Shown here piece after piece: positions 28,151-33,006 of a stretch of 64,000 bases of DNA. Numbering within the stretch: position 1 is the stretch's first letter; each line of letters opens with the position of its first letter. The notes under the pieces were generated by a model. The model made no database searches and had not been told where the DNA came from. It saw only the letters and a list, made by a program, of their open reading frames with translations. The stretch is taken from the NCBI GenBank assembly GCA_947494305.1, contig CANLUL010000002.1, forward strand, positions 429,727 through 493,726, read 5' to 3'. This DNA comes from an uncultured Sphingomonadaceae bacterium. Lineage in GTDB: Bacteria; Pseudomonadota; Alphaproteobacteria; Sphingomonadales; Sphingomonadaceae. The position numbers and the translations under genes were made by a program.

Positions 28151-28678
28151 CTAGTTCTCCGGTATGCCAAGTTTTATTAATGTGCCGCCTTGATATCGAA
28201 TATCATGGCTGACTTCTGTAACAGTCCAATCAGGCGGTGAAAGCTTACATAGCCCATCATAGTCAGGCCATTCAATCTCTAACAGCTCCAGGCCGATAAG
28301 ATCGCCTTCAAACTGATCAAGGCTCCAACTTATTCCATCAGACTCGACCGCATACCTTCGCTTGTTCAATTTCTGCGCTGGCATTGATTTCAACAGCGAA
28401 TATTCGGTATCGGTCAGATAGGCCGTGACAATGGGCCGGGCTAGTGGATCAGCACAATCATATTTTTTTGTAAGTTTGACAACGGACTGTCCGGTTATTC
28501 CGTCGGTCATTTTTCGTAGTCTCATGCGTGAATCGTCAATATAGCGATCTTCAATTACTATATAGGACAGTCCTTCAAGACGAGGCCGGGAATCTGCATC
28601 AACTAGCCAACGCCGCTCAAGTTCCAAATGCGCATATTTCGGCGATTTGGCTTCATCTTCCAACCCGCGCATGGTCAC
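28151..28678 (-). CDS. CYTH domain (triphosphate tunnel metalloenzyme) protein
   Basis: [43 protein letters not shown] start overlaps the ribB stop (TAGTG). Confidence 0.82.
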
Positions 28679-29985
28679 TATGCGTTTTCCAGAACCTTTT
28701 CTTTCCCGCCGGTCGGTATATCCCGCTGACCGACAATGCGTAGTCCATAGGCATCCAAACCGACCAGATCATGACTGGTATTGGAAAGCAATTCCATATC
28801 ACTGACCCCAAGCTCGGTCAGGATTTGTGCGCCGACACCATAATCGCGTACCTGATCCATTCCCGGACCTTTTTCCCCCGCAAGTCTGCGGACTTGCTTG
28901 GAAAGAAACTGTTCGCTCGATTGGGTGATGAAGACAATCAAGCCAGCACCCTCTTCTCCGATGATTTTCATAGACTCGGATAGCGTTTTGCCCGCCGGAC
29001 CAGTGGCGCCAAATATGTCGTTAAATATGGTCATTGCATGCATCCGCACCAATGTCGGCTTGTCCGGATCAACATGGCCTTTTTGCAAAACAATCTGTTC
29101 GGTCTGGGTTGCCTTATTGTAATAGGTAATGGCTTTCCATTCACCGCCCCACTGGCTTTCAAATGTTGCCTCGGCTCGGCGCGCAGCTAGATGATCATGG
29201 CGTAGGCGATAGGCGATCAGATCGCGGATCGTACCGATTTTCATCCCATGGTGCTGGGCAAATTCGATCAGATCATCAAGCCGCGCCATCTCTCCATCAT
29301 CTTTCATGATCTCGCAGATCACACCTGATGGATTTAGCCCTGCAAGCCGCGACACATCGACCGCTGCTTCGGTATGACCAGCACGCACCAGCACACCGCC
29401 ATTGCGGGCTTGTAACGGGAAGACATGACCCGGTGTCACAATCTCGTCCTTACTCTTGGTCCGATCGATGGCTACCGCCACCGTTCGAGCGCGATCCGCT
29501 GCACTGATACCGGTGGTAACGCCGTCACGTGCTTCAATAGAAATAGTGAAAGCGGTTTCATACGCGCCGCGATTATTCTGGCTCATCATGTCGAGGCCGA
29601 GTTCTTCCACCCGTTCCTTGTCCAACGCCAAACAGATCAGACCGCGTCCATATTTCGCCATGAAGTTGATTGCATCGGGGGTTGCCATTTGCGCCGGGAT
29701 AATCAAATCCCCTTCATTTTCGCGATCTTCGTCGTCGACCAATATATACATGCGGCCATTGCGTGCTTCGTTGATAATCTCTTCCGCACTTGCCATGACT
29801 GAAGCTCCGCCTCGCGCCAGATAGGATTCCAGTTTGCCAAGTGTTTCCGCGGTCGGATTCCAGTCATCATCACCCAAACTACGTAAACTATTCGCGTGAA
29901 GACCAGCCGCGCGGGCCAGGCCAGCACGGGTTTCTTCGCCGGATTCAATTAATTCTATCAGTTGTTCAATCAGGACCTTGCTCAT
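28678..29985 (-). CDS. ribB: 3,4-dihydroxy-2-butanone-4-phosphate synthase with N-terminal HTH and C-terminal degenerate GTP cyclohydrolase II-like domain
   Basis: RibB core ILVDDEDRENEGDLIIPAQ, PGHVFPLQARNGGVLVRAGHTEAAVD; N-terminal TRAGLARAAGLHANSLRSLGDDDWNPTAETLGKLESYL; RibA-like C-terminus lacks the Cys ligands. Confidence 0.94.
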   Translation of the reverse strand: MSKVLIEQLIELIESGEETRAGLARAAGLHANSLRSLGDDDWNPTAETLGKLESYLARGGASVMASAEEIINEARNGRMYILVDDEDRENEGDLIIPAQMATPDAINFMAKYGRGLICLALDKERVEELGLDMMSQNNRGAYETAFTISIEARDGVTTGISAADRARTVAVAIDRTKSKDEIVTPGHVFPLQARNGGVLVRAGHTEAAVDVSRLAGLNPSGVICEIMKDDGEMARLDDLIEFAQHHGMKIGTIRDLIAYRLRHDHLAARRAEATFESQWGGEWKAITYYNKATQTEQIVLQKGHVDPDKPTLVRMHAMTIFNDIFGATGPAGKTLSESMKIIGEEGAGLIVFITQSSEQFLSKQVRRLAGEKGPGMDQVRDYGVGAQILTELGVSDMELLSNTSHDLVGLDAYGLRIVGQRDIPTGGKEKVLENA

Positions 29986-30021
29986 GGAATCGCCTCTTCG
30001 ATATGATAATGACAACCACCT

Positions 30022-30039
30022 ATCACATTGTAATGTGAT
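30022..30039. promoter_or_regulatory. Operator-like palindrome ATCACATT-GT-AATGTGAT
   Basis: 8-bp perfect arms, 37 bp upstream of the ribB start. Confidence 0.7.
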
Positions 30040-30054
30040 GAGTCCAGAAATAAA

Positions 30055-30071
30055 ATCACATCAAATGTGAT
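30055..30071. promoter_or_regulatory. Operator-like palindrome ATCACAT-CAA-ATGTGAT
   Basis: 7-bp perfect arms, same half-site as 30022-30039; centres about 32 bp apart. Confidence 0.7.
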
Positions 30072-30107
30072 AGGTGTGATTAGTGGTCAGACCTTACTCC
30101 TTGACTC

Positions 30108-30127
30108 ATATGACACTTTAGTCATAT
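30108..30127. promoter_or_regulatory. Operator-like inverted repeat ATATGAC-ACTTTA-GTCATAT
   Basis: 7-bp perfect arms upstream of padR. Confidence 0.65.
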
Positions 30128-30147
30128 ATATTCCACAAATGGAATAT
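30128..30147. promoter_or_regulatory. Operator-like inverted repeat ATATTCCA-CAAA-TGGAATAT
   Basis: 8-bp perfect arms, 12 bp upstream of the padR ATG, abutting the previous repeat. Confidence 0.65.
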
Positions 30148-30159
30148 AAGAGGTGTGTA

Positions 30160-30747
30160 ATGTCCTTGAAACATGCAATTTTGGTTGCCCTCTCAGAGGG
30201 GCCAAAGTCCGGTTATGATGTTGCCAAGCAATTTGACGAGAGCATCGGCTTCTTCTGGCGGGCGCGGCACTCGCAGATTTACCGTGAAATGGGGAAAATC
30301 AAAGAGTCCGGCCTGGCGGTAGCCGAAGAAGTTCCGCAGTCCGGAAAACCCAATCGCATTGTATTCACCATTACCGACGCAGGGCGGGAAACATTGCTGC
30401 AATGGTCACGAGAACCTTCGGAACCGCCGGAAATGAAAGATCTGTTTCTGGTTCAGTTTCACGGTATCGAGCATATTGATCTGGATGGGCTGCGCCAAAA
30501 CTTGATGCGCAGGATTGAAACGCACCAAGACCGGCACGCTGAATATGTCGTCAAACACCAGTTGCTTGAAGATACCAATTCTCTTGCTGACTTGGGCCAA
30601 CAGCTGGCTTTGGAGGTTGGGATGCGATGGGAATATCAATGGGTGGATTGGTGTACCAAAGCGCTGGAGCGATTGGCTCCCGAAGCCATCGCGGGGATGA
30701 CAAATGTTGTTCCTTTTCAAAAAGAGGGGAAGAAAAATGCTGAGTGA
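30160..30747 (+). CDS. PadR family transcriptional regulator
   Basis: MSLKHAILVALSEGPKSGYDVAKQFDESIGFFWRARHSQIYREMGKIKESGLA winged-helix; ATG at 30160. Confidence 0.93.
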   Translation: MSLKHAILVALSEGPKSGYDVAKQFDESIGFFWRARHSQIYREMGKIKESGLAVAEEVPQSGKPNRIVFTITDAGRETLLQWSREPSEPPEMKDLFLVQFHGIEHIDLDGLRQNLMRRIETHQDRHAEYVVKHQLLEDTNSLADLGQQLALEVGMRWEYQWVDWCTKALERLAPEAIAGMTNVVPFQKEGKKNAE

Positions 30748-31237
30748 TAAACGACGCGCATTGCTGGTATTGAATGGCGTAGGACTATTGATATCTTCCA
30801 TATTTAGCGGTTGGCTCTATTTCTTCTTTCTTCTCGGAGCGATCGATTTGTGGCCTTTGGTAACCGACATACCAATTGAAATTGGCGGTGATCGTCGTGC
30901 CTGGAACATGGCGCATATGGAAGGCATTACAAATGGCCTTGTTCTCATCGCTTTGGCCGCCGCAGCGCCCTTTGTTCAACTGGGCGCCAGGAGCCAGACT
31001 TGGTTGTTCTGGTCTTCGCTAGTTACAGGCTGGATGTTCACACTGCCCGCTATTGCCAACGCCATCTTCTCTACCAGAGGTCTTGAATTTGGCGGTGGGC
31101 CTTTTCCAGGCGATGTCACCACCAACAATATTATTTACCTGTCAGGTTGGCCCCCAATCATTGCTGTACATATCGGCTTTGGATTGTTCGCATGGGGCGC
31201 CTGGCGGAAATATAAATCACTGGAGTCGGAAGCATGA
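30737..31237 (+). CDS. Four-TM membrane protein resembling styrene-oxide isomerase (StyC-like)
   Basis: RRAWNMAHMEGITNGLVLIALA and TRGLEFGGGPFPGDVTTNNIIYL resemble StyC motifs (W.RAHSGPALNG, NRGLSFG...GPGD) as recalled; four hydrophobic segments. Confidence 0.6.
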   Translation: MLSDKRRALLVLNGVGLLISSIFSGWLYFFFLLGAIDLWPLVTDIPIEIGGDRRAWNMAHMEGITNGLVLIALAAAAPFVQLGARSQTWLFWSSLVTGWMFTLPAIANAIFSTRGLEFGGGPFPGDVTTNNIIYLSGWPPIIAVHIGFGLFAWGAWRKYKSLESEA

Positions 31238-32121
31238 CTGTACAGATAAAGACTCCCCATCCTGAAGCTGGCGGTATTGTCGTTCGTGCCATTCCTTTTG
31301 CTTTTGATGAGAATATCAATCCGGTCTGGAATCCCGAAAAACCTGAATGGAGCCATATGGCCAATGGAGCATCCCTCACTATGCCCTATCTCGAGCCGTT
31401 TCTGATTAAGACCGTGCGCGAGGCACTGAAAAAAGCGAGCAACAAACAGCTGAAAGACGATGTACACGGCTTCATGGCGCAAGAAGGCAATCACTTCCAA
31501 AATCATCGTCGCTACAACGAAATATTGAAAAGCCACTATCCAGATCTTGCCGATGTTGAGGATGAAATGACGGCCGAATACAAGAAGTTTCAGAAGCGGA
31601 GCTTGCGCTGGCGTCTGGCCTATACAGCCGGTTTTGAAACGATGACAATGGGTATCACGGAGTGGTTAATCGAGGATCGTCGTAGCTTGTTCAAAGATGC
31701 CGATCCATCGGTGGCATCATTGATTCTATGGCACATGGTTGAGGAGACGGAGCACAAGAATGTTGCCTATGATTTGTATCAAGATCTCTATGGCGGTTAT
31801 TGGGCCCGGACGTGGGGGTTGATTTACGGAGCATGGCATGTCGCCTGGTCCAGCCGTAAAGGCTACAGACGCATGTTGAAGCGTGACGGCCTTTGGAACA
31901 AGTTCAGCAGCCGTATGCGGCTCTACAAAATGGTCGCACAATTCTTTATCAAGGCCTCTCCGGCGATGCTGCGATCATTAGTGCCCGGATATCACCCAAG
32001 CAAGGTCAACGATCCAAATTGGGTATTTCGCTGGACGAAAGCTTATGCCGATCTTCCGGAGAATATCATTCCGCTTCTAGATACCGGTGATCCAGATATT
32101 CCGGCGCAATTTTCTGGTTGA
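31234..32121 (+). CDS. PF10118/COG3687 predicted metal-dependent hydrolase
   Basis: MAQEGNHFQNHRRYNEIL, AYTAGFETMTMGITEWL, WHMVEETEHKNVAYDLYQ (di-metal E..H motifs); ATGA overlap with the upstream gene. Confidence 0.82.
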   Translation: MTVQIKTPHPEAGGIVVRAIPFAFDENINPVWNPEKPEWSHMANGASLTMPYLEPFLIKTVREALKKASNKQLKDDVHGFMAQEGNHFQNHRRYNEILKSHYPDLADVEDEMTAEYKKFQKRSLRWRLAYTAGFETMTMGITEWLIEDRRSLFKDADPSVASLILWHMVEETEHKNVAYDLYQDLYGGYWARTWGLIYGAWHVAWSSRKGYRRMLKRDGLWNKFSSRMRLYKMVAQFFIKASPAMLRSLVPGYHPSKVNDPNWVFRWTKAYADLPENIIPLLDTGDPDIPAQFSG

Positions 32122-32133
32122 AAGATGACTGCG

Positions 32134-33006
32134 TTAAAGGAAATCCCTTAGCGTCTCGACAAACCCATCAAACTGATCATGGTGCAGCCAGTGACCGGCG
32201 TCTGCGAATTCCTTCACGGAAACATTGTCACCGAAATATTGCATACGACCATCTTTTTCGGGATTGCTTGCCCAGCTGTCTGCACCATAGTGAAGCTGGG
32301 TTGGGCATGTGATATTGCCCCAAAGCTCGTGGACCGCATCTTGCGTAAGATCGATACTATCCCAGTGCTGGACATAAGGATCAAATTTCCAGCTATAGCT
32401 GCCATCCTCGTTGCGGATTACCGCGTGGGTGGTTAGATGCCGAGCCTGTTCATCGGAGAGATGCTGGTTCGCATCCTGCATACGCTTTAGTGCATCTTCG
32501 AAAGTAGGGTAGCGTTTTACCTGCCGTCCGGCGGACCTGCGTTTCTCTTCGATTGAATTTCGTACGCGCTGAAGCTGCCCCAGTTTGTCGCGTTCCTTGA
32601 GCATCTCCGGGCTCGGTCCCAAGCCTTCAATCGCGACAAGTTTCCGCACAGTATCTGGGTACAGGCCTGTATAGCGAAGCGCGATATTACCACCCATGCT
32701 ATGTGCAACAATGGTGACTGGTGAGAGATCCAGCTGATGGATCAGCTGCGCCAGATCAGTGACCATCGCCATTGATGAATAATTGCCGTCTGTACTCCAT
32801 TGGCTATCACCATGACCGCGCACATCGGGGCATATGATATGCCAATCGTCACGCAGTTCTTGCGCGACCCAATCCCAATTGCGGCAATGATCCCTGCCGC
32901 CATGGAGCAAGATCAATGGCGGTTTATCCTCATTGCCCCAGTCTGCATAATGCAGGCGGAGGCGCTGAGAGAAATAGCTATGAGATGCGGGGCCAATAAG
33001 GGTCAT
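32134..33006 (-). CDS. Alpha/beta hydrolase
   Basis: LILLHGGRDHCRNWD, DVRGHGDS, VAHSMGGNIAL, DAGHWLHHD. Confidence 0.95.
   Translation of the reverse strand: MTLIGPASHSYFSQRLRLHYADWGNEDKPPLILLHGGRDHCRNWDWVAQELRDDWHIICPDVRGHGDSQWSTDGNYSSMAMVTDLAQLIHQLDLSPVTIVAHSMGGNIALRYTGLYPDTVRKLVAIEGLGPSPEMLKERDKLGQLQRVRNSIEEKRRSAGRQVKRYPTFEDALKRMQDANQHLSDEQARHLTTHAVIRNEDGSYSWKFDPYVQHWDSIDLTQDAVHELWGNITCPTQLHYGADSWASNPEKDGRMQYFGDNVSVKEFADAGHWLHHDQFDGFVETLRDFL

Follow-up and report, generated by a model that had tools for sequence, protein, structure and literature searches.

Recurrent pairing of a styrene-oxide isomerase relative with a predicted diiron protein in a Sphingomonadaceae operon and in distant bacteria

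What could a PadR-type regulator, a four-helix membrane protein resembling styrene-oxide isomerase (SOI) and a PF10118 protein be doing together in a single overlapping operon? The operon lies in the window analysed here, a 64,000-nucleotide stretch on contig 2 of the 3.35 Mb genome of an uncultured Sphingomonadaceae bacterium, and the nearest relatives of its membrane protein include those of Sphingorhabdus and other Sphingomonadaceae. The initial annotation had described three tightly coupled genes, and the three ORFs were confirmed at its positions, all on the forward strand. The padR stop codon ends at 30747, 11 nt into the SOI-like gene (ATG at 30737), and the SOI-like stop codon ends at 31237 in an ATGA overlap with the PF10118 gene (ATG at 31234). 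The features of the region are as follows.

30101..30127, forward strand: candidate promoter and PadR operator before padR (TTGACT plus the inverted repeat ATATGAC/GTCATAT), proposed from a conserved footprint.
30160..30747, forward strand: PadR-type regulator, PF03551 and PF10400, both domains over cut-off; orthologues stand first in the operons of several Sphingomonadaceae and of family f48, a distant one.
30737..31237, forward strand: membrane protein of the SOI superfamily, clade A, predicted to carry heme b on His60 (profile, alignment, predicted fold).
31234..32121, forward strand: PF10118 protein of subfamily S, predicted ferritin-like diiron oxygenase or oxidase (Pfam, ligands, fold, tree).
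32134..33006, reverse strand: alpha/beta hydrolase, a loose associate only; orthologues lie by the pair in L014, L035/L036 and L101 and are mostly unlinked elsewhere.

The membrane protein had been likened to StyC, the SOI of styrene degradation. Its sole NCBIfam match is indeed the StyC model NF045734 (E 3.7e-13), at 49.8 bits against an equivalog cut-off of 150 bits, and a Pfam search of the protein returned no family. When the PDB was searched with a profile of 38 homologues, the best matches were two SOI chains (E 2.6e-7 and 2.1e-5). The AlphaFold comparison proposed in the initial annotation gave the same answer: the model (pLDDT 90; long helices at residues 4-33, 53-79, 84-110 and 138-165) had SOI 8pnu as its only PDB match at E<=0.001 by Foldseek (E 1.6e-6, TM 0.75/0.80). 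The motifs WxxAHxxxxxNG and RGLEFG...FPGD are both present. The heme-ligand histidine expected from the first of these, His60, is invariant in the 38 homologues, as are Arg114, Trp56 and Trp99; the Asn of the same motif varies, being Gln or His in some. Judged by profile, alignment and predicted fold, the protein is a true SOI relative and a member of the SOI superfamily.

SOI carries a ferric heme b on His58, with Arg112 as a heme-propionate residue (PMC11374702). Across our superfamily alignment the heme His is invariant in all rows and the Arg112 position is Arg except in three rows; the alignment thus indicates that heme binding is likely retained. The other side of the heme is different. 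In SOI, N99 and Y103 place the epoxide oxygen, the N99A and Y103A mutants have lost activity, and N64A and D95A are impaired (PMC11374702). The window's protein has F, A and T at the N99, Y103 and D95 positions and of these four residues keeps N64 alone; clade A, to which it belongs, has Phe/Ala (or Thr) at the N99/Y103 positions throughout. Both the StyC branch and clade B (e.g., L005, L046-L048) retain N99 and Y103; D95 is confined to true StyC. Clade A also has residues of its own, with E62, T65 and T102 invariant and H145 in TM4 near-invariant (37/38). From the alignment, then, the distal pocket, or substrate side, of the clade A proteins appears rebuilt relative to SOI. Hence the likeness to StyC stood for the fold, the motifs and the heme His, but not for the identity: the score falls well below the StyC cut-off and the subfamily as a whole has other residues in place of the catalytic Asn99 and Tyr103. 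An unchanged styrene-oxide isomerase is unlikely because Asn99, Tyr103 and Asp95 are all replaced there. No styrene monooxygenase StyA/B was seen near the operon; a genome-wide Smoa_sbd search also gave no match, but the control genomes were equally silent.

Retention of the heme-binding residues with loss of those that place the substrate is what might be expected if the membrane protein were a small cytochrome b, passing electrons from the quinone pool to a PF10118 diiron oxygenase with no isomerisation at all. The residues peculiar to clade A, including the second near-invariant His in TM4, would suit such a role, and a diiron oxygenase requires an electron source, which most loci do not have linked. 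Nevertheless, we consider this redox partnership rather unlikely. The SOI heme acts as a Lewis acid in its ferric state, at subunit interfaces of the membrane domain (PMC11374702), and there are orphan SOI-like genes without PF10118. In addition, clade B pairs retain both N99 and Y103, so that loss of the isomerase pocket is no condition of pairing.

The product of 31234-32121 matches PF10118 over nearly its full length at 200.6 bits (cut-off 33.2). The Pfam title of the family is "Predicted metal-dependent hydrolase", but the AlphaFold model (pLDDT 87) points elsewhere. Its top PDB matches by Foldseek are CmlI, R2lox, RNR R2, AurF, T4moH and stearoyl-ACP desaturase, all of them ferritin-like diiron or dimanganese proteins, although with weak E-values (the best, CmlI, at 0.025, prob 1.00). 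The initial annotation had noticed E-x-x-H di-metal motifs, and in 31 homologues E54, Q83, E84, H87, E135, H167, E171 and H174 are invariant. The window's protein reads QExxH...HxxEExxH, and QExxH with HxxxExxH occurs in 54/54 PF10118-like proteins and in 47/49 of a wider set. The ligands of AurF, CmlI and DnfA are ordered Glu, Glu-x-x-His, Glu, His-x3-Glu-x2-His (PMC9478400); E54, E84, H87, E135, H167, E171 and H174 follow that order. At the level of profiles the relationship is distant. AurF and PF10118 models match each other's members weakly (E about 1e-4; 1.6e-4 for the AurF model on a PF10118 gene), and a PF10118 relative scored 21.5 bits against the AurF profile PF11583, below the cut-off of 29.6. 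PF11583 was absent from the Pfam matches of the window's protein, an hhalign comparison of the PF10118 set with AurF-like proteins gave no significant match, and a PDB sequence search with the PF10118 profile found nothing. Because the fold E-values are weak, the ferritin-like reading draws on the consistency of matches and ligands. Taken so, PF10118 is probably a ferritin-like dimetal enzyme, an oxidase or oxygenase, whose metal ligands are three His and four carboxylates. The name "hydrolase", for which the analysis turned up no support, looks wrong, and the partner seems better described as having a ferritin-like diiron oxygenase fold.

Two other readings of this protein bear on the same evidence. 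It might be a genuine lipid or ester hydrolase, with the SOI-like protein as its membrane partner or as an isomerase of its product; the family title says as much, and an alpha/beta hydrolase gene lies near the pair in several lineages. We regard this as improbable, given that the fold matches are uniformly of the ferritin-like kind, that QExxH/HxxxExxH is the pattern given for AurF and CylC (PMC12101540), and that our literature search found no experiment behind the annotation. Equally improbable, in our judgement, is a dimetal halogenase or desaturase acting on a lipid-like substrate, the product of which would be processed by the SOI-like protein. CylC halogenase has QExxH/HxxDExxH motifs (PMC12101540), to which QExxH and HxxEExxH are nearer than to the DExxH of AurF, and stearoyl-ACP desaturase is among the fold matches; yet the likeness to CylC is by description, and the loci examined offered no fatty-acyl-carrier or halide context.

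Whether the two genes belong together was examined across genomes, as the initial annotation had advised. In 37 public-genome loci, from Sphingomonadaceae, Erythrobacter, Phenylobacterium, Parvibaculum, Paraglaciecola, another Gammaproteobacterium and Acidobacteria, PF10118 directly adjoins the SOI-like gene in 32, in either order; the remaining five are one contig end, two Novosphingobium and two Acidobacteria. PF10118 is the only gene to recur beside SOI-like genes in most of the lineages compared, and the linkage is present in each deep SOI clade sampled. The coupling that had been read from one operon thus recurs in distant genomes, far beyond what chance would give for such a gene set. 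None of the three outcomes that the initial annotation would have counted as refuting it (no structural match to SOI, no conserved His, no co-occurrence in other genomes) was observed. A phylum-wide SOI search added few further genomes. In a census of 241 Alphaproteobacteria genomes, 14 of the 30 SOI-like genes adjoin PF10118 on the same strand, and PF10118 is found in 13/16 genomes with SOI-like genes (three lack it) versus 9/225 others.

The association can be narrowed to part of the PF10118 family. In a tree of 49 PF10118 proteins, all 27 linked ones fall in one clade (support 100/97), and 17 of the 22 unlinked ones fall outside it. We call this clade subfamily S; it was defined after the tree had been viewed, and the remaining PF10118 copies were classed by subfamily profiles. 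Subfamily S occurs in 14 of the 241 genomes, and an SOI-like gene is found in 13 of those 14 versus 3/227 others (p 7e-18, such p-values being descriptive, as the subfamily was set post hoc and some genomes are close kin). No SOI-like gene occurs in the eight genomes that carry only other PF10118 copies, and adjacency to an SOI-like gene was seen for 13/20 subfamily-S genes versus 0/28 other PF10118 genes. Genome G176 has the two genes apart; its SOI-like protein (L054) is sister to the linked SOI-like protein of G167, and its S protein (L143) to the linked S protein there. The superfamily extends beyond StyC, which is a single branch of it, and a large part of it is associated, in distant bacteria, with one subfamily of PF10118.

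Some loci depart from the simple pair. G159 (L065:934-1977) has SOI-like genes in tandem duplicate next to a single PF10118 gene. Elsewhere, SOI-like genes have as near neighbours members of a flavoprotein-like oxidoreductase family whose assignment is poor (L031:7797-8516, L032:5329-6816, L100:10197-11603 and L110:6660-7991), and at three of these four loci PF10118 does not adjoin the SOI-like gene. Such oxidoreductases are a possible alternative oxygenase partner.

The regulator is a different matter. The PadR protein is over cut-off for both PF03551 (51.4 bits, cut-off 27) and PF10400 (Vir_act_alpha_C, 48.7 bits), and a TTGAC...CATAT...CATAT footprint lies upstream of padR in eight more loci that carry PadR; several of these are close kin, and one, L106, is from a distant family with the order PadR-PF10118-SOI. 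The footprint pattern occurs once in this genome without mismatch, so PadR looks dedicated to this operon; further occurrences were found with three mismatches, at a rate like that of the control. A simple sigma-70 scan returned no promoter at the conserved TTGACT, and the promoter reading therefore comes from the footprint. PadR is present in only part of the loci. In other lineages its position is filled by a TetR gene that is divergent. The regulator is therefore exchangeable, and PadR was rejected as a core part of the system; by this comparison it is a dispensable local regulator. The suggestion that PadR control signified phenolic sensing was abandoned, as PadR appears incidental and nothing points to phenolics.

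The upstream region holds other repeats as well. Two more perfect inverted repeats, at 30022-30039 (ATCACATTGTAATGTGAT) and 30055-30071 (ATCACATCAAATGTGAT), are located in the stretch that separates padR from the divergent ribBA-like gene; they are absent upstream in the relatives examined and so are perhaps for another regulator. The palindrome TATATTCCACAAATGGAATATA (30127-30148) immediately precedes padR, and several close relatives keep it (TATTCCATTAGTGGAATA). The gene at 28678-30015, on the reverse strand, encodes a DHBP synthase/GTP cyclohydrolase II-like protein, which in its longest ORF has ~75 additional N-terminal residues resembling a helix-turn-helix; that part had no Pfam match.

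Neighbouring genes give a hint of a pathway in one genome. In Paraglaciecola arctica (L034:2552-9584), one strand encodes a Zn-ADH, an ALDH, the SOI-like protein, PF10118, an acyl-CoA ligase and an aromatic-dioxygenase-type ferredoxin reductase, such that the pair is flanked by dehydrogenases on one side and by ligase and reductase on the other. The arrangement suggests that a hydrophobic compound is oxidised to an acyl-CoA, and this operon is the best lead to the substrate. Most loci have no catabolic operon, this context comes mainly from one genome, and a ferredoxin or reductase is not linked in most loci. Sphingorhabdus sp. 109, Parvibaculum and a genome of family f17 carry orthologues (58-93%) of the alpha/beta hydrolase close to the pair. 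It was considered as a third core part and rejected, being present in 38/241 genomes and mostly unlinked.

The pair might instead destroy a reactive small molecule (an epoxide, a hydroxylamine-like compound or a nitrogen-oxide species), with no part in catabolism. Small single operons with dedicated PadR or TetR repressors would fit detoxification, as would the AurF/CmlI/DnfA ligand pattern, DnfA being a hydroxylamine oxidase among the AurF-type relatives (PMC9478400). In Chakrabartia godavariana an H-NOX (heme-NO-binding, HNOB) gene runs divergently from the pair (L021:5204-5740); it could be taken as further support, but among the loci examined it lies by the pair in that lineage only. The Paraglaciecola operon looks catabolic, and DnfA is close to AurF/CmlI whereas PF10118 is distant from them. 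On balance we find detoxification unlikely, and marginally more so than an electron-transfer role for the heme protein.

The reading we prefer, with a probability of about 0.48, is an oxidation module of two obligate protein partners with a repressor of its own, in which diiron oxygenation is followed by rearrangement on a heme protein. The PF10118 protein, working at the membrane with O2 at its diiron site, would oxygenate a hydrophobic compound and so yield an epoxide or a similar electrophile. The SOI-like protein, its ferric heme acting as a Lewis acid, would turn this reactive product into a carbonyl by rearrangement, and ordinary dehydrogenases together with an acyl-CoA ligase could then feed the carbonyl into central metabolism. 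PadR would keep the operon off as long as neither substrate nor product is present. The main objection to the rearrangement step is the loss of N99 and Y103 in the window's subfamily. The broader proposal is more tentative than the module itself: that the module is widespread, a PF10118-subfamily oxygenase handing its product to an SOI-superfamily heme-b protein with a non-styrene active site, and so forms a second Lewis-acid heme route without styrene monooxygenases. The initial annotation had imagined an undescribed epoxide, aromatic or lipid modification system; its SOI homology and di-metal coupling survive in our reading, its phenolic-sensing element does not.

Both families (SOI-like/StyC and PF10118) are of course already catalogued. 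Neither the pair, nor subfamily S, nor a function for PF10118/COG3687 was found described in the open-access literature, most subscription journals being outside that scope; the SOI literature examined concerns styrene degradation, and the SOI heme was reported only in 2024. If the preferred reading is true, it would be the first functional assignment for PF10118, as an oxygenase and not a hydrolase, and heme Lewis-acid chemistry would extend past styrene oxide. It would also provide biocatalyst candidates with a different pocket, and a set of "hypothetical" operons would be open to simple expression, heme and iron assays.

Compared with known systems, the pair would by analogy parallel StyAB plus StyC, except that a diiron oxygenase would stand in for the flavin epoxidase and the substrate would differ. 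The SOI-like protein shares with StyC (PDB 8pnu/8pnv, 30tw; NF045734) the four-helix membrane fold, the His58 and Arg112 positions, Trp97 and the RGL loop. It differs in having T, F and A for D95, N99 and Y103, in the new clade A residues at positions 62, 65, 102 and 145, and in its partner, which is PF10118 where that of StyC is StyAB. The second protein is a clear member of PF10118 but belongs to a separate subfamily tied to SOI-like genes. It resembles AurF/CmlI (PF11583) and DnfA in its predicted ferritin-like fold, in the order E..ExxH..E..HxxxExxH and in weak profile matches both ways; unlike AurF/CmlI, which have DExxH, it has QExxH, does not reach the AurF cut-off and has no amine-oxidation context. 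The CylC/NocO dimetal halogenases share the QExxH and HxxD/EExxH layout, as described for CylC, but the second PF10118 motif has E where CylC has D, and the PF10118 loci have no halogenase context. Finally, PadR repressors with Vir_act_alpha_C likewise combine PF03551 and PF10400 with a candidate operator ahead of the operon, whereas the PadR of the window's type is local to part of the loci.
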